Both the position numbers and the translations under genes were made by a program. The notes under the pieces are model-generated. The model ran no database searches, was not told the origin of the DNA, and saw nothing but the letters and a program-made list of their open reading frames with translations. Positions 4,002-21,648 of a stretch of 36,628 bases of DNA are shown piece after piece. The stretch comes from Verrucomicrobiota bacterium (lineage in GTDB: Bacteria; Verrucomicrobiota; Verrucomicrobiia; Limisphaerales; UBA8199). The stretch lies in contig JARKQH010000426.1 of the NCBI GenBank assembly GCA_029974925.1, forward strand, positions 1 through 36,628. Reading direction: 5' to 3'. The first letter of the stretch is position 1. Every line of letters starts with the position of its first letter.

Positions 4002-4008
4002 GCGTCGT

Positions 4009-5361
4009 ATGGGTATCCGAGGCGCCGTCGTTTTTCTTGCGGCTGTGGCCGCGTCTTCACCCCTTTGGGCTGTCGCGGGGCCGCCCCCGGCCCCGGCCCG
4101 GTTTCCCGTCACCGAGTTCGGGGCGAAGGGGGATGGCCAGACCCTCAACACCGGCGCCATTCAATCCGCCATAGACCGTTGCGCCGAAGCCGGCGGGGGG
4201 GTGGTGGTGGTGCCCGAGGGGGTGTTCGTGAGCGGGGCCATTTTCCTGAAACCGGGTGTGAACCTGACCGTCGAGAAAGGCGGGGTGCTGAAAGGGTCGC
4301 AAAACACCAATGATTATCCGTGGATCCCAACCCGCATCGCCGGTCTGGAAATGCGCTGGCCCGCGGCGCTGGTCAATGCCAGCAACCTCACCCGGGTCGA
4401 ATTGAGCGGCGAGGGCACTCTGGACGGCTCCGGCGAACGCTGGTGGCGCGAGTACTGGACCGCCCGGGCGAACGAAAAGGACGGCATTGACCCGCACTTC
4501 AAAATCCCGCGCCCGCGTCTGGTGCACCTCTTCGAGTGTCGGAACGTGGTGGTGCGCGACCTGTGGCTGAAAAACTCGGCCTTTTGGAACTTGCAGCTTA
4601 CCTATTGCGATGGCGTCGAGGTTCACAACCTCAAAATCCGGGCGCCACATGAGCCGGTCAAGGCCGCCAGCTCCGACGGCATTGACATTGACTCGACGCG
4701 GAACGTCCTCATCACCGGGTGCGACATCGAATGCGACGATGACGCCATCTGCTTGAAGGCCGGTCGGGACGCGGACGGCCTGCGGGTGAACCGGCCGACT
4801 GAGAACGTGGTGATTCGCGACTGCCGGGTGGGCTACGGCGCCGGCCTGGTGGTGTTTGGCAGCGAGACGGCAGGCGGCATCCGCAATGTCCGAATCTCCG
4901 ATTGCCGGGCGGAGGCGGGGTGTGGAGAAATCGTGCGGTTCAAGACCCGGATGGGACGGGGCGGGGTGGTCGAGGACATTGTTTATGAAAACATCACGGC
5001 GGACGGGACCGCCCGCGTGTTCAATTTCAACATGAATGCCTTCAGCACCACCTGGCTCCCGGAAGCGTTTCGCACGCCCGTGCCGCCGGAGCGGGGCACT
5101 CCCATCTTTCGCAACATCACCGTCCGCAATCTCACGGCGCGAAACTGCGGCTCGGCCGGCTCGCTGGTTGGCCTGCCCGCCAGCCCCCTGCGTGATCTGA
5201 TCCTCGAAAACATTGAAATCGAGGCGCGAAACAGCTTCACCATTCGCCATGTGACCGGCTTGCGCTTCCACAACGTCAAGGTCAACGGTCAGCTCGTGGA
5301 GGCGCCGCCGGAGGGAGCCTTGCCGGCCAGTGCCGGACGCGCGCGCGCCGCCGCCGATTAG
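4009..5361 (+). CDS. GH28 family protein (polygalacturonase-like), exported
   Basis: This 450-residue protein has a signal peptide (MGIRGAVVFLAAVAASSPLWAVA) and a right-handed beta-helix of GH28 type, the family that hydrolyses galacturonan or rhamnogalacturonan. The N-terminal FGAKGDGQTLNTGAIQSAID is the usual opening. The catalytic region has SSDGIDID (Asp223) and CDDDAICLK (Asp244/Asp245), matching the conserved Asp triad, and R-F-K (310-312) in place of R-I-K. The GHG segment that normally carries the conserved His reads V-G-Y-G-A-G, with Tyr276 where His is expected, before the conserved G-S-E. The fold is clear, but activity and specificity are not. The ATG at 4009 lies 7 bases after the lyase stop, so it belongs to the same operon. 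The end is 11 bases before the PL11 start. Confidence 0.9.
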   Translation: MGIRGAVVFLAAVAASSPLWAVAGPPPAPARFPVTEFGAKGDGQTLNTGAIQSAIDRCAEAGGGVVVVPEGVFVSGAIFLKPGVNLTVEKGGVLKGSQNTNDYPWIPTRIAGLEMRWPAALVNASNLTRVELSGEGTLDGSGERWWREYWTARANEKDGIDPHFKIPRPRLVHLFECRNVVVRDLWLKNSAFWNLQLTYCDGVEVHNLKIRAPHEPVKAASSDGIDIDSTRNVLITGCDIECDDDAICLKAGRDADGLRVNRPTENVVIRDCRVGYGAGLVVFGSETAGGIRNVRISDCRAEAGCGEIVRFKTRMGRGGVVEDIVYENITADGTARVFNFNMNAFSTTWLPEAFRTPVPPERGTPIFRNITVRNLTARNCGSAGSLVGLPASPLRDLILENIEIEARNSFTIRHVTGLRFHNVKVNGQLVEAPPEGALPASAGRARAAAD

Positions 5362-5372
5362 CGGGGGGGATT

Positions 5373-8300
5373 ATGCGAGGTTCGGTTGCGCGCTGGCCGG
5401 GACGGCCCGCTTCCCGGCGGGGGAAAACCGGCGGCCTGCTTCGGGTCCTGTTGGCCGCTCTGCTTGTGGCGGACGCGGTCCCCGCTCACGCCCAGCGACA
5501 GATGGAAAGACTCGGCCGCGGATTGGTCGTGCTGCGCACCGCCACCTCGCAGGCTTACCTCAGTTGGCGGTTGCTGGCCACGGACCCCGAGGAGATTGCC
5601 TTCAATGTTTACCGTTCCACGGGCGGGGCTGCTCCCATCAAGATCAATCAGGGTGCTCCGGTCAGTCAGACGACGGATTTTCTGGACACCACCGCCAACT
5701 TTGCCGTGTCCAATGCCTGGCTGGTGGCCCCCGTCATCGGGGGAATCGAACAGGCGCCCTGCCCTCCGGCCCGACTTCCCCCCAACCCTCCGGTGCGCCA
5801 GCACCTCAATCTGCCCCTGCAAACGCCGGTCAACGACGGCCTGAATTATGACGTGAAATTCTGCTGGGTGGGCGACTTTGACGGCGACGGCGAGTATGAC
5901 TACCTGGTGGACCGGACCGCCACGACGGGCAGCTCGCGCCAATATTTGCAGGCTTACCTTCGCGACGGCACCCTGCTCTGGCAGGTGGACATGGGGCCGC
6001 TGAGCACCAACCGCTCGAACGCGTACGAGCCCGATGCCGCGGCCATCAGCGTCGGAGACAAGGACAACTTGACCGTTTATGATCTGGACGGAGACCACCG
6101 CGCCGAAGTGGTGGTTCGCGTCGCCAACGGCACGGTCCTGCCCGGCAACCTCACGGTCACCACCAACAACAACGTCGCTCAGTTCCTCTCCATTCTCGAC
6201 GGCCTGACCGGCGTCGAACGCGCCCGGGCGCTCCTCCCCAATCCCTATTTCGCCGACGGCCCGCTCAATTGCCACGCGGGCATCGCGTATTTCGACGGCA
6301 TCCATCCCAGCATCGTTTTCAGCGGCGAAAACCGCGTCGGCACCGGCCCGTTCCAGCGGCTGTCGGTGGCGTGGGATTTCCGCGACGGGAAGCTGACCCG
6401 GCGCTGGCTCTATCAAACTCCGCCCGGGCAGAATGACGAGGAGGGCCACCAGCTCCGAATCGCGGACGCCAACCATGACGGGCAGGACGACCTCATCCGC
6501 ATCGGCAGTGTGGTGACCGACAGCAACGGCGTGCCGGTCACGCTCTACTCGACCGAGCTGGGCCACGGCGACCGCTACCACGTCTCTGACCTGGACCCGG
6601 ACCGGCCCGGTCTCGAGATGTTTGCCATTCAGCAAAGCAACCCGACTCTGCTGGCCACCGCCTTGCAGGACCTGGGCAGCGGCATCCTGTACAAGAAGTG
6701 GCATGCCGGCGCGGTGACCGACGTGGGCCGCGGCCTCACGGTGGATTTGCATCCCGGCCATCGCGGCTCGGAGGTGTTCTCCACCCAGCCCGGCATGTTC
6801 GATGCCCGCGGCCTGAAGATTGGCAACGCCAAGCCGTGGCCCTGGGAGGGCCTCTGGTGGAATGCGGATCTGTGCCGCGAGTTTTTCGCCGCCCGGGACG
6901 GGAGCGGTCTCCGGCCCTGCGTGAACCGCTGGGATTACACCAGCGAGACCGAAACATTGATTTATAATGTTCACACCGAGGGTGTTCACTCCGCCTACGG
7001 CGCGCGGCCGGCGTTTTTCGGGGACATTCTTGGCGATTGGCGCGAGGAATTCGTGGTCGTGGCGGACGACTACTCCGCGCTGCGCATCTACTCGACCTCC
7101 ACGCCCGCGACCAACCGCATTTATTGCCTGATGCAGAACCCGCAATACCGCGTCCAATGCACGTTCAAAGGCTATTACCAGGCCAGCTACCCCGATTACT
7201 ACCTGGGCAACGACATGCCCCCCATCCCCATTCCCCCGGTTTCGGACGCCCAACTGGTCTGGCGCGGCGGCGGCGCCAACGTGTGGGACGAAGCCTCGAC
7301 GGCCAACTGGCTGACCAACAATCTGTGGATCAGCAACACCGTCAAAGTCCCATTTGTCTCGGGCGCCTCGGTCTTGTTCGACGTCACGGGCTCGAACCAC
7401 GCCGCCGTGACGCTCGCCGGGTCCCTCCAGCCCGCCAGCGTGCGCGTCTGGTCGCCCGCGGACTACACCTTCGCGGGCCCGGGCGAGCTGTCCGGCGCCA
7501 TGGCCCTGACCAAGGCGGGGGCGGGCCGGTTGATCTTCAATGGAACCAATCGCTACACGGGCCGGACACTGATCGGCGAGGGGTCCTTGACGGTGAACGG
7601 CTGGCTCCCGTTCAGCCCCGTCACCGTCCGCGGGGGTGTCTGGCGGGATGGGCGTCTCTGTGGAACCGGCGTCATTGGCTCGGCGGTCCGCATCGAGGAA
7701 GGCGGCGGGCTTTCACCCGGACAGGGCACGAATTCACCCGGCACCCTGACCCTCAGCAATCATCTCACGCTGGCGGGCCGCACCTTGAGCCATTTCGATT
7801 TGTCCGACGACCCGGCGGGCACGGTCAAAACCAACGACCTGGTGGTGGTTGCCGGCAACCTCGTTCTGGCGGGCACCAACGCCCTGGTGATTCACAGACT
7901 GGACGGCGCCTTGGCGCAGGGAAGCGTCTATCCCTTGATTGCCTATTCCGGCGCGTTAGTGGGCAACCTGACGAATCTGACCGTCGTTGGCCTGACCGGT
8001 GTCCCCTGTGCGCTGACCAATCCCCCCGGCCAGATCGCCCTCTTCGTCAAGAGCCATCGTCCGCCCGCCACCGTCACTTGGACGGGTGGCAGCGGGGGGA
8101 ACGCTTGGGACCTCCTCACCACCAGCAATTGGCTCAACGGCGCGGCCAAAGACCGGTTTGCCCCCAACGACCACGTGCGCTTCGACAACCTTGGCACGTC
8201 GAACCTGACGGTGACTTTGGCCGGCGACCTCAACCCGGCCACGGTCGTGGTGGACAGCACGGCCAACTACACGCTTGCCGGCGATGGGGCCATCGTCGGT

Positions 8301-9977
8301 CCGGCCTCGCTGACCAAATCCAACACCGGCACGCTCACCATCAACACTCTCAACAACGCCTATACCGGAAAAACGACCCTCGCCGGGGGGACGGTTGTGG
8401 TGTCGGAACTGGATGCCGCCGGCTACCCGAGCCCGCTGGGCGCGGCCGGTCCAAGCCCCACCAACCTGGTGCTGGCCGGCAGCCCCACCTTGCGCGTCCT
8501 GGGCCAGTCCTATACTGACCGCGGCCTGACCTTGGGTGCCGGCACCAACACCCTGGACGTTTACAACGCCGGCGAGCAGGTGACCTTGGCCGGTTTGCTC
8601 ACCGGTCCCGGCGCGCTCCAGAAAACCGGGCCAGGCACGCTCGCGCTCACCCGCAGCAACAATTTCTCCGGCGTCACCATCCTGCAGGCGGGCACGCTCT
8701 CGCTCGGCGGCGACGACGCCAACCAATACGGCTTCGGCGCGGGGGGAACCGGCACGGTGATTCTCCAGGGCGGCACGCTGACGATGTTCGACAATTCGAG
8801 CTCTTACAACAGCATTTACTGGACGGTCCACGTGCCGACCGGCTCGACGGCCACGCTTAACGCCGACAGCCGCGTGGATTACCGCGGCGCCCTCACGGGC
8901 GGCGGCACCTTGACCTTCCGCGTGCCCTACGTCCGCACCACCCTTTACGGCAACTGGTCCGGCTTCACCGGTCAGCTCAACGTCACCACCGACAGCGACG
9001 GGGGGGACTTCCGGGTCAGCAACAGCTACGGCTATGCTGGCGCGTCCGTGCATCTCGCCAGCCTGGTGAGCGCTTACCACACCACGGCGGGCTCCAGTGT
9101 GGCATTCGGCGCGCTGTCCGGCGTCGCGGGCTCGAAGCTGTCCAATGCCGCGTGGACGGTCGGAGCGAGAAACACTAACAGCACCTTTGCAGGCACCATC
9201 GCCGGCAATTCGATCACCAAGGTCGGCACGGGCACCTGGACCCTGACCGGCTCGAATTACTACGCCGGTCCAACGCTCGTCAGCGGCGGCACGCTCATAG
9301 TCAATGGAGACCACCGCGCGGCCACGGGGGCAGTGACGGTTGCCTGGGGCGCGACGCTGGCCGGCACGGGCCTCATTGGCGGTCCGGCCACCATTCAGAA
9401 CGGTGGCACCCTCTCACCCGGCAGCAATTCAATCGGCACCCTGACGTTCGCCGGCAGCCTGAACCTGCAGGCCGGCTGCACGAACCTGGTTGAAATCAAC
9501 AAAACGACCGGAACGGCGGACCGCGTGGCCGTGGCCGGCGCGCTGCAGCTCGGCGGCGTGACGATCGTTACCAATCGTTCCGGCACCCTGGCGGCGGGCG
9601 ACTCTTTTCAGTTGTTCGACGCCGGCTCGTTCGCCGGGTCTTTTCAAATGCTGCTCCTCCCCCCGCTGCCATCTCCGCTGGCGTGGAACACGAACTCGCT
9701 CGCCACCAGCGGCCTGATTTCCGTCGTCACCCGCCCGGTTCCAGCTCCGCCTCGAGTGGCTTTGGGGATCCTGACCAACGGCGCGCTGGTTTTCACGGGC
9801 ACCGGGGGTGTCGCTCAGGCCACCTTCCACCTGCTGGGCTCGTCGAATGTGGCGGCGCCCTTGAGCTCGTGGGAACGTCTTTTGACCAACCAATTCGATG
9901 AACAGGGCAACTTCATTTTCACGCATCTGCCGAATCCGGCCTGGCGCCAGGGCTTTTACCGGCTCCAAGTGCCTTAA
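5373..9977 (+). CDS. PL11 rhamnogalacturonan lyase fused to PATR repeats
   Basis: This 1534-residue exported protein begins at an ATG preceded by a G-rich ribosome-binding stretch (5363-5370); the signal peptide ends near A-H-A-Q (residue 41). Residues about 42-620 match family PL11 rhamnogalacturonan lyases (YesW/YesX type): RQMERLGRGLVVLRT, SWRLLATDP, IAFNVYRS, DFDGDGEYD, DLDGDHRAEVVVR, LGDWREEFV, YYLGNDMPP. These enzymes cut the rhamnose-galacturonic acid backbone of RG-I by beta-elimination. From about residue 625 on, the sequence becomes PATR beta-strand repeats, clearest near residues 700-750, 966-1015, 1070-1112 and 1269-1312, with a second W-T-G-G-S-G-G-N-A-W module at about 905. There is no autotransporter barrel. 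The C-terminus ends in GFYRLQVP, like the PATR protein at the left edge. Repeats probably hold the enzyme at the surface or bind the wall (inference). Confidence 0.9.
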   Translation: MRGSVARWPGRPASRRGKTGGLLRVLLAALLVADAVPAHAQRQMERLGRGLVVLRTATSQAYLSWRLLATDPEEIAFNVYRSTGGAAPIKINQGAPVSQTTDFLDTTANFAVSNAWLVAPVIGGIEQAPCPPARLPPNPPVRQHLNLPLQTPVNDGLNYDVKFCWVGDFDGDGEYDYLVDRTATTGSSRQYLQAYLRDGTLLWQVDMGPLSTNRSNAYEPDAAAISVGDKDNLTVYDLDGDHRAEVVVRVANGTVLPGNLTVTTNNNVAQFLSILDGLTGVERARALLPNPYFADGPLNCHAGIAYFDGIHPSIVFSGENRVGTGPFQRLSVAWDFRDGKLTRRWLYQTPPGQNDEEGHQLRIADANHDGQDDLIRIGSVVTDSNGVPVTLYSTELGHGDRYHVSDLDPDRPGLEMFAIQQSNPTLLATALQDLGSGILYKKWHAGAVTDVGRGLTVDLHPGHRGSEVFSTQPGMFDARGLKIGNAKPWPWEGLWWNADLCREFFAARDGSGLRPCVNRWDYTSETETLIYNVHTEGVHSAYGARPAFFGDILGDWREEFVVVADDYSALRIYSTSTPATNRIYCLMQNPQYRVQCTFKGYYQASYPDYYLGNDMPPIPIPPVSDAQLVWRGGGANVWDEASTANWLTNNLWISNTVKVPFVSGASVLFDVTGSNHAAVTLAGSLQPASVRVWSPADYTFAGPGELSGAMALTKAGAGRLIFNGTNRYTGRTLIGEGSLTVNGWLPFSPVTVRGGVWRDGRLCGTGVIGSAVRIEEGGGLSPGQGTNSPGTLTLSNHLTLAGRTLSHFDLSDDPAGTVKTNDLVVVAGNLVLAGTNALVIHRLDGALAQGSVYPLIAYSGALVGNLTNLTVVGLTGVPCALTNPPGQIALFVKSHRPPATVTWTGGSGGNAWDLLTTSNWLNGAAKDRFAPNDHVRFDNLGTSNLTVTLAGDLNPATVVVDSTANYTLAGDGAIVGPASLTKSNTGTLTINTLNNAYTGKTTLAGGTVVVSELDAAGYPSPLGAAGPSPTNLVLAGSPTLRVLGQSYTDRGLTLGAGTNTLDVYNAGEQVTLAGLLTGPGALQKTGPGTLALTRSNNFSGVTILQAGTLSLGGDDANQYGFGAGGTGTVILQGGTLTMFDNSSSYNSIYWTVHVPTGSTATLNADSRVDYRGALTGGGTLTFRVPYVRTTLYGNWSGFTGQLNVTTDSDGGDFRVSNSYGYAGASVHLASLVSAYHTTAGSSVAFGALSGVAGSKLSNAAWTVGARNTNSTFAGTIAGNSITKVGTGTWTLTGSNYYAGPTLVSGGTLIVNGDHRAATGAVTVAWGATLAGTGLIGGPATIQNGGTLSPGSNSIGTLTFAGSLNLQAGCTNLVEINKTTGTADRVAVAGALQLGGVTIVTNRSGTLAAGDSFQLFDAGSFAGSFQMLLLPPLPSPLAWNTNSLATSGLISVVTRPVPAPPRVALGILTNGALVFTGTGGVAQATFHLLGSSNVAAPLSSWERLLTNQFDEQGNFIFTHLPNPAWRQGFYRLQVP

Positions 9978-10010
9978 CGCCTCTTCCAGAAACGCCAGGA
10001 GGGCTCGACA

Positions 10011-10026
10011 GGCCGCTTGGGCGGCC
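10011..10026 (+). terminator. Short GC hairpin after PL11 gene
   Basis: GGCCGC (10011-10016) pairs with GCGGCC (10021-10026) around TTGG. It lies in the 97-base gap between the PL11 stop and the GH2 start, followed by a GGAAA-c-TTTCC inverted repeat but no T-run. It could attenuate transcription into GH2 or stabilise the upstream mRNA. The evidence is structural only. Confidence 0.3.
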
Positions 10027-10074
10027 GGAAACTTTCCCTCTCCATGCCGGGCGACAACTCATAAAGTGACCCGT

Positions 10075-13000
10075 ATGAAAACGCTGCTGCCATTGCTCTT
10101 GCTCTCCGTGGCCACGGGTTTGGCAGTGGGCGCCCCTCCGCTGCACACAGCACCCGCCGCTCTGGACCTGAGTGGCGCGTGGCGGTTTGCCTTGGACCGG
10201 GCCGATGTCGGCCTCCCGGAGGCCTGGTTCGAGCGTCGCCTGCCCGAGGCGATCCAACTGCCCGGCGTGCTCCAGGCCCAGGGTTATGGCGATGAAATCA
10301 GCACCAACACCCCGTGGGTCCTCTCGCTCTACGACAAAAACTGGTTCCTCCGTGAGGACTACAAGCCCTACGCCGGGCCGGCACCGGTCAAGGTCCCTTT
10401 TCTATCCCAACCCCCGCGTCACTATCTGGGCGTGGCCTGGTATCAGCGCGACATCGAGATTCCCCGCCACTGGATGGGACGACGGATCGAGCTGTTTCTG
10501 GAACGCGCGCGGTGGGAGACGCGGGCCTGGCTGGATCAGCGGTTGCTGGGGACCAACAACTCGCTCTGTGTCCCCCATGTCTTCGAAGCAGGGATCATTG
10601 GCGACGGCCCCGGCCAGATTCGACCCGGCACCCATCAACTGACCGTGCGGGTGGACAACCGCATGCTCATGAATTATCGCCCCGACGCCCATGCCGTGAG
10701 CGACTCGCTGGGCAGCACGTGGAATGGCATCGTGGGACGAATCGAGTTGCGCAGCACGCCCCCGGTCTGGCTCGACGAGGTCCGCGTCCGGCCGAATGCC
10801 GCCGCCAAAAGCATCGCGCTGACCGCCCGGCTCAAGAACATTTCGGGCCTGCCGGTTTCGGGAAAAATCTCTTATGAGATCGAAGCCGGAGCCGGAGCCG
10901 CGAAACTCAACTTACCGGCGCGCAGCCGGAACTTCCATGCCGCTGCGCCCAGCCTGGACCTTGTCCTCGAAGAGGACTGGCCCCTCGGAGCGGACGCAAA
11001 ATGCTGGGATGAATTCTCCACCCCGCTCTATCGGCTGCGGCTCACGCTGCGGGGTGAGATGGGCGATTCCGCGTCCCGGGTGGAACACGAACTCGGCATC
11101 TCCTTTGGTCTTCGCGATATCCAAGCCGCCGGCCAGGAGCTCCTCGTCAACGGGCGCCCCACCCACCTGCGCGGAACGCATCACGGCGGCGATTTCCCTC
11201 TCACCGGCCACCCGCCGTGCGACCTCGAGTATTGGGAGGGATTGTGGCGAACGTGCAAGGAGTGGGGATTGAATCACGTCCGGTTCCACTCCTTTTGCCC
11301 GCCGGAGGCGGCGTTTGAGGCCGCCGACCGCGCCGGCCTCTATCTCCAAATCGAGCCGGGCATGTGGAATGAGATCAGCCCGGGCACAGCCATGGAGAGG
11401 ATGCTGTATGCGGAAACCGAACGCATCCTCGCCGCCTATGGCAACCACCCCTCGTTCGTGCTGATGTCCGCCAGCAACGAAGCCAAGGGCCGGTGGAAGG
11501 ACGCGTTGCCCCGTTGGGTCAATCATTTTCGAAATCAAGACTCCCGCCGCCTTTACACCCCGGACACCGGCTGGTCGCTCATTGACGAACCCGGCCCGGT
11601 CGAGGGCGCCGATTTTCTCGCCGTCCACCGCATCGGCCCGAACATGCTGCGCGGGCCCTCGGCCTGGTTCGGCCGGGACTACGCCCGCTCCCTGCGCGGC
11701 GTCAATGTGCCGGTTGTCGCCCATGAGTTGGGGCAGTGGTGCGCTTATCCGGACTTCGAGGTCATCCGGAAGTTCACCGGCTATCTTCGGCCGGGCAACT
11801 TCGAGATATTCCGCGACTCGCTTGCCGGCCGGGGTTTGCTGGAGCAGAACCGGGAGCTGGCCCGGGCCTCGGGCCGGTTTCAGTTCCTTTGCTACAAGGA
11901 GGAGATTGAAGCCAACCTGCGCACGCCGGGGCTGGCCGGCTTCCAATTGCTGGATTTGCACGATTACCTCGGCCAGGGAACCGCCCTGGTTGGATTACTT
12001 GACGCCTTCTGGGAACCCAAGTCCTGCGCCACGGCCGCCGAGTTCCGGCGTTTCTGCGGCCCCACTGTTCCTCTGGCCCGTTTGACGCGCCGCGTGTTCA
12101 CCCCGGCGGACCCGTTCGAGGCGCCGGTCGAGATCGCCCATTACGGCCCCGCCCCGCTGACGAATGCCAGCGTCAGTTGGCGGATTCTCAACGCCAGCGG
12201 CGCCGTCGTTCGCAGCGGGCAGTGGCCGGCCCGGACACTTCCCCACGGCAGGACGGCTTTGCCCGGCGCGGTCACCGCCAGTCTTGACGGGCTGCCGGCT
12301 CCCGCTGCCTATCGGCTGGTCGTCAGGATCGAGCCCGCGTTGTCCGCTGTCACCGGTTCGGCTCAGTCCATCGTCGCGCCGGCTGCCGTGTCCGTCTTGG
12401 AGAACGACTGGAAGTTCTTTCTCTATCCGCCGCCGGATGCAGCCTTGACGCCGCCGGACATTCTCGTGACCACCTCGTGGAACGCGGCCGAAGCCCGGCT
12501 GGCCGCCGGGGGCAAGGTGCTGTTCCTCCCCCAAGCCGCCAGCCTCGACTGGAGCTGCCCGCCGCTCGATAATGTGCCCATTTTTTGGAACCGGCTCATG
12601 AACCCCGGCTGGAGCCGCATGCTGGGGCTTTGGTGCCAGGCCGGTCATCCCGCCCTGGCCCAATTCCCCACCGACTTCCACTGCGACTGGCAATGGACCG
12701 AGCTGCTGCGCCGGGCGCGGGCGATCAACCTCGACCGGTTGCCCCGCCGGCTGCAGCCCATCGTGCAGGCCGTGGATGACTGGAACCGGAACTACAAGCT
12801 TGGCGTGCTTTTTGAATGCAAAGTCGGCCCCGGCCGTTTGCTGGTGTGTTCGCTGGACCTCCAGAACGACGTGGCCTCCAGGCCTGTGGCCGCCCAGTTG
12901 CGCCGCTCGCTCCTGGCGTACATGGCCGGCACGCGGTTTGATCCCGAGGTGTCCGTTTCCCCCGCCGATCTCCGGGAGTTTCTGTTTGACACGCAGATCA

Positions 13001-13512
13001 TGCGGAAGCTCGGCGCCCAGGCGCGGGCCGGGGGGGCGGATGCGGCCGCGTTGCTCGACGGCGACCCCAACACCTTCTGGATCGCCGGCGGCGGCCGGCG
13101 CGGCGCCCCGGAACGCGGGCATCCCCACGAGATTATCATCCAGTTCCCCCGCCCCGTCCCCGTCCAAGGCGTCGTGCTGTTGAACCGTCAAAACGACCGC
13201 GATCATTTGGGCGACATTCGCGGCTACCGGCTCGACGCCGGCGAGGATGGCTCAACCTGGCGGGAAATTGCCCGCGGCGAGCTGGCTTCGACCTGGAACC
13301 CCCAGAGAGTGGCATTCAGCGCGCCCATCACCGCGCGCTTTCTGAAGCTGACCGCCCTCTCCGGCTTCGGCGCCGATGCCACCGCCGCCCTCGCCGAGTT
13401 TGCCGTCCTTTACGCCGGCCCGGCCCTGCCGGAGACTCCTCCCGGCAGGCCGGCCGAATCCCAACGTTCCCGCAGCACCTCGACCGATGTGGACGAGGGC
13501 ACTTCTCCGTGA
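10075..13512 (+). CDS. GH2 family glycoside hydrolase with C-terminal discoidin-like domain
   Basis: This 1145-residue exported protein starts at ATG 10075, giving signal peptide MKTLLPLLLLSVATGLAVGA. It opens with the GH2 sugar-binding jelly roll (LDLSGAWRFALD at about 28; YLGVAWYQRDIEIP at about 120), then immunoglobulin-like and TIM-barrel domains. The likely acid/base is Glu469 in MSASNEAKG, equivalent to the conserved N-E; the likely nucleophile is Glu551 in VVAHELGQW. Residues about 980-1112 look like an F5/8 type C (discoidin/CBM32-like) module, with ALLDGDPNTFW, VVLLNRQNDRD and FLKLTALSGF. Retaining exo-action on beta-galactoside, beta-glucuronide or related side chains of RG-I is plausible from context, but the sugar cannot be read from the sequence. 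The CE12 gene starts directly at its stop. Confidence 0.85.
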   Translation: MKTLLPLLLLSVATGLAVGAPPLHTAPAALDLSGAWRFALDRADVGLPEAWFERRLPEAIQLPGVLQAQGYGDEISTNTPWVLSLYDKNWFLREDYKPYAGPAPVKVPFLSQPPRHYLGVAWYQRDIEIPRHWMGRRIELFLERARWETRAWLDQRLLGTNNSLCVPHVFEAGIIGDGPGQIRPGTHQLTVRVDNRMLMNYRPDAHAVSDSLGSTWNGIVGRIELRSTPPVWLDEVRVRPNAAAKSIALTARLKNISGLPVSGKISYEIEAGAGAAKLNLPARSRNFHAAAPSLDLVLEEDWPLGADAKCWDEFSTPLYRLRLTLRGEMGDSASRVEHELGISFGLRDIQAAGQELLVNGRPTHLRGTHHGGDFPLTGHPPCDLEYWEGLWRTCKEWGLNHVRFHSFCPPEAAFEAADRAGLYLQIEPGMWNEISPGTAMERMLYAETERILAAYGNHPSFVLMSASNEAKGRWKDALPRWVNHFRNQDSRRLYTPDTGWSLIDEPGPVEGADFLAVHRIGPNMLRGPSAWFGRDYARSLRGVNVPVVAHELGQWCAYPDFEVIRKFTGYLRPGNFEIFRDSLAGRGLLEQNRELARASGRFQFLCYKEEIEANLRTPGLAGFQLLDLHDYLGQGTALVGLLDAFWEPKSCATAAEFRRFCGPTVPLARLTRRVFTPADPFEAPVEIAHYGPAPLTNASVSWRILNASGAVVRSGQWPARTLPHGRTALPGAVTASLDGLPAPAAYRLVVRIEPALSAVTGSAQSIVAPAAVSVLENDWKFFLYPPPDAALTPPDILVTTSWNAAEARLAAGGKVLFLPQAASLDWSCPPLDNVPIFWNRLMNPGWSRMLGLWCQAGHPALAQFPTDFHCDWQWTELLRRARAINLDRLPRRLQPIVQAVDDWNRNYKLGVLFECKVGPGRLLVCSLDLQNDVASRPVAAQLRRSLLAYMAGTRFDPEVSVSPADLREFLFDTQIMRKLGAQARAGGADAAALLDGDPNTFWIAGGGRRGAPERGHPHEIIIQFPRPVPVQGVVLLNRQNDRDHLGDIRGYRLDAGEDGSTWREIARGELASTWNPQRVAFSAPITARFLKLTALSGFGADATAALAEFAVLYAGPALPETPPGRPAESQRSRSTSTDVDEGTSP

Positions 13513-13514
13513 CC

Positions 13515-15554
13515 ATGCGTAACGACAGATTCCAGCACCTCATCCGGTTGACAATCCTGGCCGCCAGCCTGGTCCATCCTGCCGCGCGTTGGGCGGACCT
13601 GGACACTGCCGCGCCCAAACGCCATCCCTCGCTGCCCACGGTCTTCCTGGCCGGCGACTCGACCGTCCGGAACGGCAGCGGGCGGGGCGCGGACGGGCTT
13701 TGGGGTTGGGGCAGTTATCTCGACCGGCACTTTGACACCGCGAAAATACGCATCGAGAACCGGGCCTTGGGCGGGCGCAGCAGCCGCACCTTCATAACCG
13801 AAGGGCTGTGGGACAAGGTGGTCGCGGAATTGAGGCCGGGGGATTTTGTCATCATTCAGTTCGGCCACAATGACGGGGGCGAACTGGCCAAAGGCGACCG
13901 GCCGCGCGCGTCGCTCAAAGGCGCTGGGGATGAGTCCCGGGACGTCATCATCGAAAAGACCGGCAAGCCGGAAACCGTCCACACCTACGGCTGGTATTTG
14001 CGAAAATATATTGCGGACGCCAAGGCCCGGGGCGCCACGCCCATCGTCTGCTCGCCGGTTCCGCGGAACATCTGGCGGGAAGGCCGGGTGGCTCGCGCGG
14101 CCCATGACTACGCCAAATGGGCGGCGGAGGCCGCGACGGCCGGCGGCGCGTTCTTCATTGATCTAAACGAAATGATCGCCCGCCGCTACGAGGAGATCGG
14201 GCCGGAGCGGGTCGCGGCGGAGTTCTTTACCGCCGCCGATCACACCCACACCACCCGCGCCGGGGCGGAGGAAAACGCCGCGGCGGTGGCCGAGGGCATC
14301 CGCCGTCTGGAAGACTGTCCGCTGCGCGACTTTCTGTTGCCGGTGTGGCGGTTCAGCTTTGGCGGTGAAGCGCCCTCGGGCTTCGTCCGCGTCACCCCGC
14401 AAACCGCCTATGACCCCGGCCGCGGCTTTGGCTTCCTGGAGAGCAATCCCGCCAGGCCGGACCAGCCCTCCGTGTTCGCCGTGGACCTCGAGGAAGGCAA
14501 CTACCATGTGAGGCTCCGGCTGGGCGACCCGGTGCGCCCCACCTCCACCACCATCAAAGCCGAATCCCGCCGGTTGATGATTGAAAAAGTCGAAACCGCG
14601 CCAGGCCGGTTCGAAATCCGTGCGTTCACCGTGAACGTGCGCAAGCCCGCCATCCGCACCGGCGGCACCACGCTGCTCAATCCGCGGGAAAAAGGCCCGC
14701 CTCTGGCGCCCGACTGGGACGACCACCTCACCTTCGAGTTCAACGGCGCGGCTCCCGGAGTGGCCACCATGGAAATCAAGCCGGCCCGCGAGGCCATCAC
14801 CGTCTTCCTGGCCGGGGATTCGACCGTCACCGACCAGCCCAAAGAACCTTACGCCGCCTGGGGCCAGATGCTCCCGCGCTTCTTCCAGCCCGGCGTGGCC
14901 GTTGCCAACCATGCCGAGTCCGGCCTGGCCCTCTTTTCCTTCGAACGCCAGAGGCGCCTCGAGAAAATCCTCAGCACGATGAAGCCGGGCGACTACCTCT
15001 TCATTCAATTCGGTCACAACGACCAAAAGGACAAGCGGCCGGAAGCGGGCCCCTTCACCACCTACAAAGCCAATCTCCAACGGTTCATCCAGGCGGCACG
15101 GGACCGGGGAGGCATCCCGGTGTTGGTGACTCCCATGGAGCGGCGGCGCTGGCAGGACACTGGGCCGCAAACCACGCTCGCCGACTACGCCGAAGCCGTC
15201 CGCCAAACCGCCGCGGAGGAGAGAGTTCCGCTCATTGATCTCCATGCCATGAGCTTGAAACTCTACGCCGCCCTTGGCCCCGAGGCATCCGCCAAGGCCT
15301 TCGTCCATTACCCGGCCAACAGCTTCCCGGGGCAAACCCAGCCGCTGGCGGACAACACTCATCACAGCGCTTACGGCGCTTACGAGCTGGCCCGCTGTGT
15401 GGTCGAAGGCATCAAAGCCCACCTCCCCGAACTGGCGGCTCACCTGGTCCAGGATGCCGGCTCCTTCGACCCGGCCAAACCCGATCCCCCCGCGACCGTG
15501 GTCATCCCCCGCAGCCCCCTGAGAGACAGGGCGGAAAAGCCGGCCGGAGATTGA
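13515..15554 (+). CDS. Tandem CE12 rhamnogalacturonan acetylesterase (two SGNH domains)
   Basis: Two complete SGNH/GDSL hydrolase domains of the rhamnogalacturonan acetylesterase type lie in one 679-residue exported chain. Domain 1 has GDSTV (Ser49), FGHND (Asn119) and D-H-T-H (Asp242, His245). Domain 2 has GDSTV (Ser436), FGHND (Asn502) and D-N-T-H (Asp613, His616). So both sites look catalytically intact. Between them, residues about 275-425 form a beta-rich module (FSFGGE, DLEEGNYHVRLRLGD, LTFEFNG) resembling a carbohydrate-binding or malectin-like fold. Removing acetyl groups from RG-I would open the backbone to the PL11 lyase upstream. The start could be GTG 13509, overlapping the GH2 stop, or ATG 13515; both keep the signal peptide (ILAASLVHPAARWA). 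The arrangement implies translational coupling with GH2. Confidence 0.88.
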   Translation: MRNDRFQHLIRLTILAASLVHPAARWADLDTAAPKRHPSLPTVFLAGDSTVRNGSGRGADGLWGWGSYLDRHFDTAKIRIENRALGGRSSRTFITEGLWDKVVAELRPGDFVIIQFGHNDGGELAKGDRPRASLKGAGDESRDVIIEKTGKPETVHTYGWYLRKYIADAKARGATPIVCSPVPRNIWREGRVARAAHDYAKWAAEAATAGGAFFIDLNEMIARRYEEIGPERVAAEFFTAADHTHTTRAGAEENAAAVAEGIRRLEDCPLRDFLLPVWRFSFGGEAPSGFVRVTPQTAYDPGRGFGFLESNPARPDQPSVFAVDLEEGNYHVRLRLGDPVRPTSTTIKAESRRLMIEKVETAPGRFEIRAFTVNVRKPAIRTGGTTLLNPREKGPPLAPDWDDHLTFEFNGAAPGVATMEIKPAREAITVFLAGDSTVTDQPKEPYAAWGQMLPRFFQPGVAVANHAESGLALFSFERQRRLEKILSTMKPGDYLFIQFGHNDQKDKRPEAGPFTTYKANLQRFIQAARDRGGIPVLVTPMERRRWQDTGPQTTLADYAEAVRQTAAEERVPLIDLHAMSLKLYAALGPEASAKAFVHYPANSFPGQTQPLADNTHHSAYGAYELARCVVEGIKAHLPELAAHLVQDAGSFDPAKPDPPATVVIPRSPLRDRAEKPAGD

Positions 15555-15608
15555 CCGTTATTCCCGCACCCAAGGCCGGCTCGCGCGCGCCGGTCGGCGC
15601 AGCCTGGC

Positions 15609-15653
15609 CCGTCCTTCGGACGGCCGGAGCCCGCGCAGCGGGTCACGACCCGC
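15609..15653. terminator. Cluster of hairpins between convergent genes
   Basis: CCGTCC-ttc-GGACGG (15609-15623) is followed by GCGGGT-cacg-ACCCGC (15638-15653), and an alternative CCCGC-gca-GCGGG shares part of the second. They lie between the CE12 stop and the end of the minus-strand MTH1187-family gene; the second stem covers that gene's stop codon. A bidirectional transcript end is plausible, although neither stem has a T-tract. Confidence 0.4.
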
Positions 15654-15948
15654 CCAGTTTGGCCTGCACGCTCCGCGTCTTGTCCTCCATGGTCTGCGGC
15701 CGATCCGTTCGCGTGCCCATTTTGATCGTGGTGAAAATTCGTGGGGCGCCCATCTCGTGCACCACCTCGTGGCACCGCCGAATGGCGGCGAAAACCTGGT
15801 CCCATTCGCCTTCAATGTTCGTGCCATTGGCATGCAAGGCGGTTTTCAATCCCGCCGCCGTCAGCACCTTTTCGCACGCCGCCACGTACGACGACAGGGA
15901 CACCCCCGCACCGATCGGCACCACACACAAATCAAGAATGACCTTCAT
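15643..15948 (-). CDS. MTH1187 family thiamine-binding-like protein
   Basis: This small 101-residue protein of the UPF0045/MTH1187 (thiamine-binding, PF01910) family starts MKVILDLCVVPIGAG, with the family pattern of a beta-strand followed by G-x-S-x-S-x-Y, then L-H-A-N-G-T-N-I-E-G-E-W and the ending I-K-M-G-T-R-T-D-R. Members form a ferredoxin-like fold, and some bind thiamine or its pyrimidine. No leader is present, so it should be cytoplasmic. The start is supported by a strong Shine-Dalgarno sequence 9 bases upstream. It sits alone, opposite to the CAZyme genes on both sides and divergent from the GH43-type gene. Its role in the locus is not evident. The frame stays open far upstream, but only this part is convincing protein. 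Confidence 0.88.
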   Translation of the reverse strand: MKVILDLCVVPIGAGVSLSSYVAACEKVLTAAGLKTALHANGTNIEGEWDQVFAAIRRCHEVVHEMGAPRIFTTIKMGTRTDRPQTMEDKTRSVQAKLGGS

Positions 15949-15957
15949 ATTGCCTAT

Positions 15958-15963
15958 TCCTCC
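15958..15963 (-). promoter_or_regulatory. Strong Shine-Dalgarno for the MTH1187-family gene
   Basis: GGAGGA on the minus strand lies 9 bases before ATG 15948. It fixes the start of the 101-residue protein and argues against the much longer upstream open frame. Confidence 0.7.
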
Positions 15964-16042
15964 GACAGCCCCAGCCGCCTGTCCAGTCCCGATTTGAGTC
16001 TGGCCCGGGCAGGCACCAGGTCCGGGCATGGCGCCGGGCCAT

Positions 16043-16062
16043 CGCTTGCGAACGCAAGCGTT
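16043..16062. promoter_or_regulatory. Operator-like overlapping palindromes in divergent intergenic region
   Basis: CGCTTGCG-AA-CGCAAGCG (16043-16060) is a perfect 8-bp inverted repeat. It overlaps a second one, AACGC-AA-GCGTT (16051-16062). It is placed about 80 bases before the GH43-type start and about 95 bases before the MTH1187-family start on the other strand, where an operator would be expected. It could instead be a small hairpin. No regulator gene for it is visible nearby. Confidence 0.3.
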
Positions 16063-16140
16063 GCAGCCGCAGCGAGAACGACCGAACCGCCGGAGTCCTT
16101 GATTGATTCTCTGCGGTCTCCTGTTGCACCATGGCCGGGC

Positions 16141-17175
16141 ATGAAGTTTTGGAAACATGTTTGGTTGACTCTGCTCTGCCTGGCCGCCGCCCCCCTGGCC
16201 CGCGCCCAGATGCCCGATCCGCCGGGACAGGTGGCCCCGGGTGAAAAGCCCAGGCACGAAGCCTATCTCTTCGCGCACATGCTGCACGGCGATTACTGGC
16301 GGCTGTATTACAGCGTCAGCCTGGACGGTTTGCATTGGGAGCTGCTCAACGGAGGCAAACGTGTGTTCGAGGAATACCGCGGCCACGCCGATATTTGCAG
16401 GGGCCACGACGGCCGCTATTACCTGATCGGCAACCGCGGCGACCACCGGCCGGACATCAACTTCTGGGTTTCCGAGGACCTCATCGCCTGGGAAAAGCAC
16501 AGCGACTTCGTCCCGGACCTCAAGCACGTTCCCGACTACCCGAAGGCCCTGCCCCGCATCGGCGCGCCGAAGCTGTTTTTCGACGAGGCCAGTTCCCAAT
16601 ACCTCATTACCTGGCACACCACGCATGACCTGGGCCAGACGGACCTGCCCGAACCCTATTGGGCCGGCCAGCGCACGCTCTACTCGACCTCGAAAGACCT
16701 CCTCACTTTTTCCCAACCGCCGCGCAAGCTTTTCGCGTGGGACATGGCCACCATTGACACCATCATCCGCAAAGCCGGCGATTTCTACTATGCGATCATC
16801 AAAGACGAGCGCTATCCCACCCTTGAGTGGACCACCGGCAAAACCATCCGCATCTGCCGCTCGCCCAGCCTCCTGGGCCCCTACTCCGAGCCCGGTCCCC
16901 CCATCAGCCCCAACTTTCGCGAAGCCCCGACCCTGATCCCCTCGCCCAACGGCAAGGCGTGGTATCTCTATTACGAGCAGTATCCGGGTGTTTCCTACGG
17001 CCTGTCCGTGGCCGCCACGCTGGAAGGCCCGTGGTTCCAAGTGGCGGGATACCAGCAACCCAGTTGGGACAAATACTCCCTCCCGCCCAAAGTGCGTCAC
17101 GGCGCGATGCTGCCCATCAGCCGCAAGCAATATGACGCCCTGGTCGCCCGGTTTGGCAAACAGCCGGCAAAGTAA
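16141..17175 (+). CDS. GH43-type five-bladed propeller protein, exported
   Basis: This 344-residue protein has a clear signal peptide (MKFWKHVWLTLLCLAAAPLARA), which sets the ATG at 16141. The body has repeated blades of the GH43/GH117-like five-bladed propeller: YWRLYYSVSLDGLHWE, DGRYYLIGNRGDHRPDINFWVSEDLIAWE, GAPKLFFDEASSQYLITW, GPYSEPGPP, APTLIPSPNGKAWYLYYEQ. Families of this fold mostly remove arabinose, xylose or galactose residues, consistent with trimming the arabinan/galactan side chains of RG-I. I cannot assign the catalytic acids or the subfamily by eye, so substrate and activity remain inferred. It is separated from the main CAZyme run by the minus-strand MTH1187-family gene and converges with the PagL-like gene 37 bases downstream. 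Confidence 0.75.
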   Translation: MKFWKHVWLTLLCLAAAPLARAQMPDPPGQVAPGEKPRHEAYLFAHMLHGDYWRLYYSVSLDGLHWELLNGGKRVFEEYRGHADICRGHDGRYYLIGNRGDHRPDINFWVSEDLIAWEKHSDFVPDLKHVPDYPKALPRIGAPKLFFDEASSQYLITWHTTHDLGQTDLPEPYWAGQRTLYSTSKDLLTFSQPPRKLFAWDMATIDTIIRKAGDFYYAIIKDERYPTLEWTTGKTIRICRSPSLLGPYSEPGPPISPNFREAPTLIPSPNGKAWYLYYEQYPGVSYGLSVAATLEGPWFQVAGYQQPSWDKYSLPPKVRHGAMLPISRKQYDALVARFGKQPAK

Positions 17176-17212: not shown

Positions 17213-17818
17213 TCAAAACAGGACTCCAAAACCGACCATGTGCAGGTTCAGGCCCGGATTGGGCTGGGCGAGGCTGCCGTTGGACATGTGCTGGAACCGG
17301 TAACTGAGGCGCAACCTGGCCGCCAGGTCGAAGTTTACTCCGACGTGGCTGGTGAACTGCAGCTTGGTTCCAAAATTCTTGCTGCCATAAACCTCCTCGC
17401 TGATCCAGGTGGGACAAAAGCCCACCTCGAGGCTGAGCGGCACCCGCTGGCCTCCAAACAAAATGCCGAAGCCTGCTTTGAGCACCGCCCCGTCGGCGTA
17501 ATCATCGCCCAGCCAGCCGGCTGAAGCCGTCAGCGTGGGGCGCAGGTACAAGGACAACGCGCCGTTGGATTCCCAGTGCCAGGGCAGTCCGACATCGGCG
17601 TAGAATTCGCCCTGGGTGAACTGCTTGCTTTCGGTGGGAAAGGAGATGCCAAAACGCGCGCCGGCGGCGAGGATGGCCACCTGGTTGGTCGTTGAGGCAA
17701 AAGCCGCTGACAGGGTCATGACCAGGAAGGCCAACAACAGGAGAACCGCCCCGGGGCGGTTCGGTGGGATGAGGCGGGAGTCGTTTGTTTCTCGCGTGCG
17801 TTGCGGGGCCGGACCCAT
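17213..17818 (-). CDS. pagL: PagL-like lipid A 3-O-deacylase (acyloxyacyl hydrolase family)
   Basis: This 201-residue outer-membrane barrel protein of the PagL family removes a 3-hydroxyacyl chain from lipid A in characterised members. The signature is near the C-terminus: YRFQHMSNG (His177, Ser179), the H-x-S pair that is catalytic in PagL, followed by QPNPGLN. The acidic residue of the Pseudomonas triad appears to be Asn here, as judged by spacing. The protein ends GVLF, with a terminal aromatic residue as in barrel proteins recognised by BAM. The signal segment is PGAVLLLLAFLVMTLSAAFA. ATG 17818 is preferred because GGGGAGGG lies 6 bases upstream; an ATG at 17863 would add 15 residues. It is the last gene of a kinase-regulator-PagL run, 49 bases after the regulator. 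Confidence 0.82.
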   Translation of the reverse strand: MGPAPQRTRETNDSRLIPPNRPGAVLLLLAFLVMTLSAAFASTTNQVAILAAGARFGISFPTESKQFTQGEFYADVGLPWHWESNGALSLYLRPTLTASAGWLGDDYADGAVLKAGFGILFGGQRVPLSLEVGFCPTWISEEVYGSKNFGTKLQFTSHVGVNFDLAARLRLSYRFQHMSNGSLAQPNPGLNLHMVGFGVLF

Positions 17819-17824
17819 GACGGA

Positions 17825-17832
17825 CCCTCCCC
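17825..17832 (-). promoter_or_regulatory. Shine-Dalgarno selecting the PagL-like start
   Basis: GGGGAGGG on the minus strand lies 6 bases before ATG 17818. The alternative ATG at 17863 has no comparable site, so this sequence decides the start. Confidence 0.6.
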
Positions 17833-17867
17833 GTGAACGCTTCCAGGGAATCGGGGGCTTCATCCGA

Positions 17868-18494
17868 TCAGCGCTTCAGGAATTTGGCCACCGCCTCCGT
17901 CCGGGTGCGCACCTGGAGTTTTTCATAGATGCGGCGGATGTAAGTGTGGACGGTTTCGTAGCTGATGCCGAGTTTGTCGGCGATTTCCTTGTAAAGGAAG
18001 CCCTGGCTGAGGCAGTCGAGCACCTCCTGCTCGCGCTGAGACAGGTTTTCCGTTGGCTGCGGCGAAGGACCGGATTTCTGGAAGGACTGGACCACCTTGC
18101 GGGCGATGTGGGTGGTCATCGGAGACCCGCCACGGTGAACCTCACGGAGCGACTGGAGCAGCTCCGCGCTGCGAGTGCGCTTGAGCAGATAGCCCGAGGC
18201 CCCGGCGGCCAGCGCGTTGAAGATGTTATCGGTGTCCTCGTAAACGGTGAGCATCACCACCTGGATGGCCGGAGCCACCTGCTTGAGCTGGCGCACGCAC
18301 TCGACCCCGTTCATCCCCGGCAGGTTGATGTCCATCAACACCACCTCGGGCCGGTCTTTGGGCAGCCCCTGCAGGGCGGACTCGGCGTCGCCGTACTGGC
18401 TAACACAGCGGAATCCCTCCGCCCGGTTGATCACCCGCGCGAGTGTGTTGCGCAACTGTTCGTTGTCTTCGACGATGGAAACCGAAATTGGCAT
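17868..18494 (-). CDS. NarL/FixJ-type response regulator
   Basis: This 208-residue two-domain regulator has an N-terminal receiver domain with the acidic pocket E9-D10, phosphoacceptor Asp55 in V-V-L-M-D-I-N-L-P-G-M-N-G, the Thr/Val-Y switch region M-L-T-V-Y-E-D and conserved Lys in Y-L-L-K-R. The C-terminal LuxR-type helix-turn-helix (about 145-205) has LSQREQEVLDCLSQG, KEIADKLGISYETVHTYIRRIYEKLQV and R-T-E-A-V-A. It should be phosphorylated by the histidine kinase encoded 76 bases upstream and act as a DNA-binding activator or repressor. Its targets are unknown; the PagL-like gene directly downstream, on the same transcript, is an obvious candidate for co-expression. Confidence 0.96.
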   Translation of the reverse strand: MPISVSIVEDNEQLRNTLARVINRAEGFRCVSQYGDAESALQGLPKDRPEVVLMDINLPGMNGVECVRQLKQVAPAIQVVMLTVYEDTDNIFNALAAGASGYLLKRTRSAELLQSLREVHRGGSPMTTHIARKVVQSFQKSGPSPQPTENLSQREQEVLDCLSQGFLYKEIADKLGISYETVHTYIRRIYEKLQVRTRTEAVAKFLKR

Positions 18495-18517
18495 TTACAG
18501 TTTTCCCAGTGTTGCCC

Positions 18518-18534
18518 GACCCGCGTCGCGGGTC
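18518..18534. repeat. Palindrome between kinase and regulator genes
   Basis: GACCCGCG-t-CGCGGGTC is a perfect 8-bp inverted repeat in the 76-base gap between the kinase stop (18571) and the regulator ATG (18494). In the transcript it would form a tight hairpin about 25 bases before the regulator start, so it could tune relative expression or mark an RNA-processing site. It could also be a protein-binding palindrome. Confidence 0.4.
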
Positions 18535-18570
18535 AAACGGAGACTTTCCCGGCACTGTTCCGCCTCCCGC

Positions 18571-21500
18571 TCACCCGCCCTCCCCTCCGCGAGCCAGGGC
18601 GCGCAAAGGGACGGTGAGCCGGATGCAGGTGCCGCCCTCGGGGCCCGGCCCGGCCTGGAATTGTCCGCCAAGGTCTTCCATCCGGCGCCGCATGTTGCGC
18701 AAGCCGTTCCGCCCCTTGCTTTCCACGTTGGGGGGCAGACCCTGGCCGTTGTCCTCAATTTCAAGGATGAATTGAGCGGAATCCAGGCGCAATCGCAACC
18801 GGGCCGCGGAAGCCCGCGAATGCTTGACGATATTGTTGATCGCCTCCTTGGCGACCAAAAACACGTTATGGCGCAGCTCCGGGGAGATGGGCGTGGCGGG
18901 CAACTGCGGGGGGACCTCGAGCCGGTATTGCAGCCCGGCCAGCGCCAGGTATTCCTGCGCGTATTTGCACAAGTAGGTCACCAGCCCGTCCAGCGTGTCG
19001 TTGGCGGGATTAACCGTCCACACGATTTCATCCAGCGCGCGGGTGGTTTCCCGCGCCGTCTGCGAAATCTGCCGGGCATGGTTTTCAATCTCCTCCGGCA
19101 GATGCTTGTCCGCCTCCGCCATCTCCCCCAGCAGGGCGACCTGGGTCAGGTTGGCGCCCAGTTGATCATGCAGGTCGCGGGCAATCCGGGCGCGCTCTTT
19201 CTCGAGCGCCTCCTGCTGGCGCAACGCGGCGAGCTGACGCTGAAGTTTCTGGGTGGAAACGTAGTGGACTGACCCAACGATGGCGCCGAGCAGCGCCAGG
19301 GTGACCAGCGTGAGGAACCACCAAGTGCGCCAAAACGGCGGCTGAACGACGACCCCCAACGACGTGCCGGCCAGGTTCCAGACCCCGTCCTCGTTGCTGG
19401 CCGTGACTTCGAACCGGTAACGTCCGGGGGGCAGACGCGGATAACGAACCACGCGGCGGTCAGCTTCAACCTCCGTCCACTGGGTTTCGTGTGGGTTCAG
19501 CCGGTACCGGAAGCGGGCCTTCTCCGGCGCGGCGAGGTTGAGGCTGGTGTAGCGGATTTCCAGCGCCTGGCTGCCCGGTGGCACCGTCACTTCGCTCAGC
19601 GGCGCGGCGCCCAGGGTGCCCGCATCCAGGCGCCGGCCATCCAGGTAAACCGCTTCGATCATGACCGGCGGTGGATTGGTGTTTCGCTTGAGCTGCGCCG
19701 GGTCCACCGTCACCAACCCTTTGATGGTTGGAAACCAAACCCTGCCGTCGCGCGTCCGGCAGGCCGCGGGCTGCGATCCCTGCGTACACTCGGGCGAGGG
19801 CAATCCCTCGGCCCGCCCATACAGCCGCGGCGCCACCGCCGGGATCAAGCCGGCGGCCAGATCGGCCAGTTCCTTCCTTGCCACGCGCAGCAGACCCGCC
19901 GTTGTCCCCAGCCACAAATGATCGAGGTTGTCCTCCAGCAAAAACGCGATGCTGTCCCCGGCAGGTCCCAACCGTTCCGCGTAGGAGGTCCAGCGCCCCC
20001 CGGCGAAGCGGCACAAACCGCTCGAGGTGCCCACCCACAGCGCGTCGTCGCGGTCGCGCAGCAAGGCGGTCACGTTGTCGCTGGGCAAGCCGTTCGTCCG
20101 CGTGAACACCTCGAACCGCCCCTCCTGCCAGTGGGCCAGGCCGCCGCCATCGGTCCCGACCCAAAGGCCCGTTCCGCCATCCTCGGCCAGCGCCCGCACC
20201 GGAAAGGCGGGCAATCCCTCCTGGGCCGTGAGCCGCTGCCATTGCGAGCCATCCCACCACGCCAGGCCTGCCTCCGTGCCCGCCCAGAGCCTGCCCTCGC
20301 TGTCCTGATAAACCGCCGAAACGTCCCGCCGCAACAGGTCCGGTCCCGGCGCCTGCCGAAACTTGTTTTCTGAAAGCCGCAGCAAACCGCCGTTCACGGT
20401 CCCGGCCCACACCTGTTGCTGCCTGTCCACAAACACGGACCGCACGAAGCACTTCATGGGGCCCAGCGTATGCAGGTCCAGTTTCGCCTCGAAATCGGTG
20501 AACACCACGGCGCTGCCACTGGCGAAGCGCTCGATTCGCTGGTCGTTGTACCCCACCCACAGCCCCCCGAGGACGTCCTCGGCCACCGACTGGACCGTGG
20601 TGCCGCGGGTGGCCTCGAGCACCTCGAACAGGTGCCGCTTCACCCGCGCCAGGCCTCCGCCGTTCAGGCCCACCCACAAGCAACCTTCGCGGTCCATCGC
20701 CAGGGAAAGCACGGCGCTCTGGGAGAGTTCGGCGGTCGAAAGCCGGGCATAACGCCCGTCCGCTTGGAACCAGAACACGCCGTCACCGTGCGTGCCCACC
20801 ACCAGGTTGCCCTCGGCATCCTCGCAAACCGCCGTGATCGGAACCCCCTCCGTCCACGGGTACGGCCCCAGGTCACGCTGCATTTGGTCCCGCTTCCATT
20901 TCTGGATGCGATTGTCCGCCAGCCGCCAGTAACCCCCCTGCCGGCTGGCCAGCAGCGCGTCCAGCCGCCGCGCCAGCCCGGGCCGCCCATCCGGCCGGGC
21001 GGTGACCGGAAAATGAAATTCATAGACCACCGGCAGGCCGGTCGCCGGGCCCGCGGGCACCTCCCCAATCGCCGTGAGCTGCCAGTCCGAACCGACCCAC
21101 GTCAGGCCGTCGTCGTCCGTGATCACCGCCCGGCAGTTGCTGGCCAGTCCCGCTCCGGCGTTCCACACATTCACCTGCTTGTCCTGGTAACGGCAAAGCT
21201 GTCCGTCCGCGGTGTAGAGCCACACCGCCCCGCGGCGGTCCTCGCAAGCGGACATGAGCCGCCCCTGGCGGGTGCCGCGGCCGATGTCGAGGCTGATGAC
21301 GCGGCCCTGGCGGACGAGGAACACGCCGGCGCTTTCGGTGCCGATCCATAAATTCGTTTGACTGTCCTCGAACAGCTTGAGAATCCGGCTGCTCGACAGC
21401 CCCGGCGTGTTGGCCGGTCGAAAGGTGGTGAAGTGCAGGCCGTCGAACCGGGCCAGTCCGTCCAGGGTGCCGGCCCAGAGGTAACCTTCCCGGCTTTGAA

Positions 21501-21648
21501 TCAGCGTGAGCACCGCGCTCTGGGGGAGGCCATCCTCGACCCCCCAAACCCTGACATGGAAGCCGGGCGTCGAGTCAGCGCAGCTCGCAGCCACGATTCT
21601 GCACAAGAGCAATCCCGCTGCGGCAGATTTCCAGAGGTTTCCGGGCAT
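18571..21648 (-). CDS. Propeller/Y_Y_Y sensor histidine kinase (HisKA_3 type)
   Basis: This sensor kinase has 1025 residues from ATG 21648, chosen because it gives signal peptide [27 protein letters not shown] 21705 would add 19 residues. About a dozen Reg_prop blades (motifs [44 protein letters not shown]) form the periplasmic propellers to about residue 650. A Y_Y_Y domain follows ([27 protein letters not shown]). One membrane helix lies near 772-794 and a coiled coil follows it. The HisKA_3 box [14 protein letters not shown] has His827, and the ATPase has [19 protein letters not shown] and G-R-N-G-L-R-N-M. Unlike the hybrid systems of Bacteroidetes it lacks receiver and AraC domains, and signals to the separate regulator downstream. 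The ligand is unknown; the nearby pectin genes make an oligosaccharide possible (inference). Confidence 0.93.

Follow-up and report, generated by a model that had tools for sequence, protein, structure and literature searches.

Two-component systems that control genes for the lipid A deacylase PagL have been described in other bacteria. PhoPQ controls PagL in Salmonella, according to a passage of PMC2689224 that cites this work, and in P. putida the PagL gene PP0737 is under negative influence of ColR from the ColRS system (PMC2689224). The hybrid sensors BT4663 (PDB 4A2L/4A2M), BT3049 and BT4673 of Bacteroides represent a second group of related systems, in which the periplasmic sensor is built of two Reg_prop propellers and a Y_Y_Y domain. 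The combination of a propeller kinase, its regulator and a PagL gene was not found described in the literature searched, which covered few relevant papers, and searches for propeller kinases in Verrucomicrobia gave no match. The earlier note's remark that it knew of no described system of this form agrees with this search as regards the trio, whereas two-component control of PagL as such is known from PhoPQ and ColRS.

Here, we analyzed a stretch of 36,628 nucleotides from an uncultured member of the order Limisphaerales, phylum Verrucomicrobiota (the window), in which such a trio is located on the minus strand next to a group of pectin-degradation genes. The relevant features are as follows:

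3886..17175, plus strand: rhamnogalacturonan/pectin-degradation genes (GH28, PL11, GH2-like, GDSL and weak GH43-like), outside the trio
17213..17818, minus strand: PagL-type outer-membrane 8-strand barrel with a signal peptide (PF09411, 2ERV by phmmer, AlphaFold)
17819..17867, minus strand: regulator-PagL spacer of 49 nt with the Shine-Dalgarno sequence GGGGAGG; no promoter-like element found
17868..18494, minus strand: NarL/LuxR-type response regulator, REC + GerE with Asp55 (Pfam, order-wide orthologues)
18571..21648, minus strand: sensor histidine kinase (Pfam, AlphaFold with pLDDT 86, Foldseek)

The propeller kinase, the NarL/LuxR-type regulator and the PagL-type gene are all found at the positions first given. 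The open reading frame of the kinase spans 21705-18571, with the ATG at 21648 as the best start, and a gap of 76 nt separates it from the regulator gene. For the PagL gene, an alternative in-frame ATG at 17863 would leave a gap of only 4 nt; the start at 17818, 49 nt past the regulator stop, is favored because it is preceded by GGGGAGG. The proposed identities of the three proteins were confirmed by Pfam and, for the kinase and PagL, by AlphaFold and structure comparison, and the spacing of 49 bases and the strong Shine-Dalgarno sequence of the PagL gene were as described in the earlier note. The proteins are of known kinds and their arrangement is a family-level one. With moderate confidence, we favor the interpretation that the kinase and regulator constitute an order-wide two-component module with its main regulon elsewhere, and that pagL is a family-level neighbor of this module, probably reached by read-through in the window.

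The kinase consists of a periplasmic sensor with two propellers (Reg_prop, 5.6e-43) and a Y_Y_Y domain (3.2e-11), one transmembrane helix, and the HisKA_3 (3.8e-10) and HATPase_c (5.1e-11) domains, with the phospho-acceptor His at position 846 of the long ORF. The regulator matches Response_reg (3.2e-26) and GerE (7.2e-18), and has Asp55 and a LuxR-type helix-turn-helix, so that the sensor, kinase and output components of a two-component system are all present. They do not form a Bacteroides-type hybrid with the kinase, REC and AraC-type DNA-binding domain in one polypeptide: the genes are separate and the output domain is of the LuxR type. The best Foldseek match of the kinase model is the BT4663 sensor (4A2M/4A2L; E 4.5e-48, TMt 0.70), followed by BT3049 and then BT4673, in agreement with phmmer. 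Because of this best match, the sensor is assigned to the saccharide-sensing kind, an assignment from which no specific ligand can be read. By analogy with the BT4663-type sensors, the kinase would sense a periplasmic ligand, probably a carbohydrate, and would phosphorylate its NarL-type regulator. The names MctS/MadS and PorZ, suggested by weak NCBIfam matches below the cut-off, were rejected for naming.

Of 293 genomes sampled from the order, 108 contain an orthologue of the regulator (E<=1e-88; 70-93% identity), and each of these contains a single one at this threshold; paralogues within the family of the window show at most 64% identity and are clearly apart from the orthologue. At 59 of the roughly 70 loci inspected, the kinase orthologue is located directly upstream of the regulator; some of the loci are cut by contig ends, and the orthologous regulator has no upstream propeller kinase at eight loci (L065, L066, L067, L081, L085, L091, L093 and L106). 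The genomes carrying the pair belong to Limisphaerales, or Verrucomicrobia subdivision 3. The pair (17868-21648 in the window; loci L068-L127) is an orthologous two-component system that much of the order has in single copy, and a conserved, probably vertically inherited module. Clustering of all neighbors revealed no order-wide conserved neighbor besides the kinase and regulator themselves. Under the favored interpretation, the main regulon of the pair would lie elsewhere in the genome. A palindromic regulator site shared upstream of 58 orthologous kinase genes was not found by an in-house EM search, and no regulator motif is claimed here, because control regions upstream of other genes of the same loci scored equal or higher. 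Separately, TTTAC[A/T]-N16/17-GGAACAAT-type elements that end a few nucleotides before the kinase ATG are present at 16 of the 58 loci (e.g., L069, L073, L075 and L080; 1/58 in shuffles), which suggests that the orthologous kinase may be expressed from a leaderless mRNA.

The third protein of the trio scored 87.6 bits against PF09411 (cut-off 23; E 1.1e-24), and AlphaFold, using 31 homologues, predicted an 8-strand barrel with pLDDT 88.9. P. aeruginosa PagL (2ERV) was the first-ranked Foldseek match of this model, and their VIA-align superposition covers 146 residues (Z 19.2, rmsd 2.0 Å). The catalytic triad of Pseudomonas PagL, which we take to be His-Ser-Glu, was set on the 2ERV sequence. 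In the resulting alignment, His192 and Ser194 (long-ORF numbering) are in place and the Glu position, 14 residues past the His, is occupied by Asn206; Asn202, 10 residues past His192, is also present. The protein of the window is therefore a PagL-fold family member and a predicted, rather than proven, deacylase; its activity is unproven because Asn replaces the catalytic Glu in this protein and in most of its Limisphaerales homologues. The alternative that it is a structural or inactive barrel without deacylase activity is doubtful but deserves consideration. It would explain the substitution at the Glu-equivalent position, which is Asn in most of the 33 sequences from the order and Asp in three, and E, D or N in other families of the phylum. 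However, His, Ser and the NxG motif are invariant across the 31 homologues, as is the oxyanion Asn position, a pattern not expected of an enzyme that has lost its activity. Under the favored interpretation, PagL would be an outer-membrane barrel with the lipid A 3-O-deacylase fold that may act as an enzyme despite the Asn.

Among the 13 genomes of the window's family, PagL is present in 11, the regulator orthologue in 12, and both in 10. PagL directly follows the regulator in six of them (the window, G192, G200, G156, G097 and G119), and in a seventh (G170) it is located 3.9 kb beyond the regulator. The trio is thus kept in at least four genera, all of this single family, and the 5 of 80 named loci that carry the trio or its spaced form correspond to genomes already counted. 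Across the order, PagL is in most cases absent next to the pair. In a phylum-wide sample of 29 non-own PagL loci, no related regulator or kinase was present within ~1.5 kb. The conservation of the trio in relatives, proposed in the earlier note as a check, was accordingly observed in several genera of one family, but PagL is unlinked to the pair in all 22 PagL-bearing genomes from other families of the order. The regulator occurs more often than expected in these PagL genomes (16/22 vs 80/258; Fisher p 2e-4); this co-occurrence is not used as proof, because it is confounded by phylogeny, which may explain the excess.

The gene order in the family is c4, kinase, regulator, PagL, aconitase (acnA) and an rsmB-like gene, mostly in the same direction, where the aconitase and rsmB names are those we presume from reading the sequences and c4 is presumed by eye to be NIPSNAP-like. 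Under the favored interpretation, the pair would stand upstream of pagL as part of this inherited block. PagL adjoins the aconitase gene in G200, G156, G097 and G170. It does so in G209 and G218 as well, both of which lack the pair there. PagL without the pair was found in four family genomes other than the linked ones (L033, L042, L036 and L044), in two of them directly before aconitase. It is kept without the pair in G181 as in G209 and G218. In G008, the regulator and aconitase are present, but neither PagL nor the kinase is. As PagL adjoins aconitase even where the pair is missing, it is tied to this housekeeping neighbor as often as to the pair. In the window and G192, the trio is present without the aconitase neighbor, and the window also lacks the flanking c4. 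The edges of the trio in the window coincide with synteny breaks, with c4 and acnA gone and the trio kept, a possible sign that the trio is under selection; these two genomes leave room for a real tie between PagL and the pair.

In G200, G209, G181 and G218, the end of a promoter-like element, TTGCnn-N17-nATnnT, precedes the PagL start by 8-9 nt in a leaderless-like layout. A scan for promoter-like elements was positive in 5 of 11 family sequences, compared with a shuffle mean of 0.28 (maximum 4 in 300), a significance that is somewhat optimistic, since the pattern was spotted by eye before the scan was written; the calls are consensus matches, that is, predicted rather than measured start sites. 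Before PagL of the window, no such element was detected by either the family-pattern scan or a consensus scan of the window. In the other five genomes with direct linkage, 21 to 291 nt separate the regulator from PagL, unlike the kinase-regulator junctions, which are mostly tight or overlapping. An own promoter of PagL, which according to the earlier note would speak against the operon, is therefore indicated by promoter-like elements in relatives but not in the window. The missing element, together with the 49-nt gap and its Shine-Dalgarno sequence, makes read-through into pagL plausible in the window. The likeliest reading, and a plausible one, is that PagL is an independent transcription unit in several relatives, seemingly under its own promoter, and is probably transcribed in the window by read-through from the kinase-regulator unit.

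Two perfect 20-bp palindromes are present in the window (0.1 expected in shuffles), one at 17743-17762 within the codons of the PagL signal peptide (GAACCGCCCCGGGGCGGTTC) and the other centered at 31836. The former was considered and rejected as a binding site, having no second copy at <=3 mismatches in the window, and as an attenuator, having a poor T-run.

The trio could instead be a functional unit, with the kinase as a detector of an envelope or saccharide ligand and pagL as an operon member under the regulator's control, leading to lipid A remodeling. Such a unit, which we regard as unlikely, would account for the retention of the trio in at least four genera despite the loss of flanks in the window. 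In addition, lipid A synthesis genes, which supply the substrate, are present in the genome (LpxC, E 2.0e-96; LpxK, E 5.2e-77), and two-component control of PagL has precedents in other bacteria (PMC2689224). On the other hand, no PagL adjoins the pair outside the family, G209, G218 and G181 keep PagL without the pair, promoter-like elements precede PagL in relatives, and no regulator-specific motif was found upstream of the kinase. The proposed link of a periplasmic sensor to outer-membrane lipid remodeling is consequently retained as far as the identities of the proteins, their shared direction and the persistence of the trio in the family are concerned, but is weakened by the order-wide pair mostly lacking PagL and by the equal association of PagL with aconitase. 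A functional link between the pair and PagL is possible judging from gene order; the broader scenario, in which the propeller two-component system of one Limisphaerales family recruited pagL to convert a saccharide or envelope signal into lipid A remodeling by a PagL variant with an Asn active site, appears improbable.

If the pair does control pagL, this would be, to our knowledge, the first case in Verrucomicrobiota of lipid A modification linked to a propeller-type saccharide sensor. Two other results are more secure. Much of the order has the pair as a conserved module in single copy; we found no function assigned to it, and its regulon would be well worth identifying. In the PagL proteins of the order, Asn (or Asp) occupies the position of the catalytic Glu of the known deacylase.

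The plus-strand pectin genes converge tail-to-tail with PagL. Their PL11 gene matches RGL11_C, the GDSL gene encodes an esterase, and the GH43-like match is below the Pfam cut-off. The pectin locus noted beside the trio does adjoin it at 3886-17175, but the two are convergent, the pectin genes are not conserved next to the pair in relatives, and the proximity is most simply read as a local feature of the window genome. It is highly improbable that the kinase senses pectin or rhamnogalacturonan oligomers and turns on lipid A deacylation together with the adjoining pectin genes: these genes are physically close and the fold of the sensor is that of the heparin/heparan-sulfate sensor BT4663, but they are encoded on the opposite strand, no homologues except for single weak matches of the GH28 and GH2-like kinds were found near the orthologous pair in ~150 other loci, and the orthologous kinase is distributed order-wide, so that pectin signaling to lipid A is unlikely. 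The PL11 rhamnogalacturonan lyase (5373-9977) carries PATR passenger-associated repeats in the same polypeptide, and a second PATR protein is encoded at the left end of the window (21-1892), which suggests that these may be autotransporter-like secreted pectin enzymes.

In comparison with known systems, the window resembles PhoPQ-PagL of Salmonella and ColRS-PagL of P. putida in combining a two-component system with a PagL gene; however, those links were demonstrated by experiment, whereas that in the window is one of gene adjacency, and the kinase and regulator families of PhoPQ and ColRS differ from those of the window pair. The kinase shares the periplasmic architecture of two Reg_prop propellers and Y_Y_Y with BT4663, BT3049 and BT4673. 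Unlike these hybrids, it is a HisKA_3 kinase of the DesK/NarX-like kind that is separate from its regulator, the latter being of the NarL type without an AraC output domain, and no polysaccharide-utilization operon adjoins the pair on the same strand. Finally, the PagL-type protein has the 8-strand barrel and the HxSN and NxG motifs in common with P. aeruginosa PagL (PDB 2ERV), from which it differs by an identity of only 18% and by the exchange of the triad Glu for Asn.
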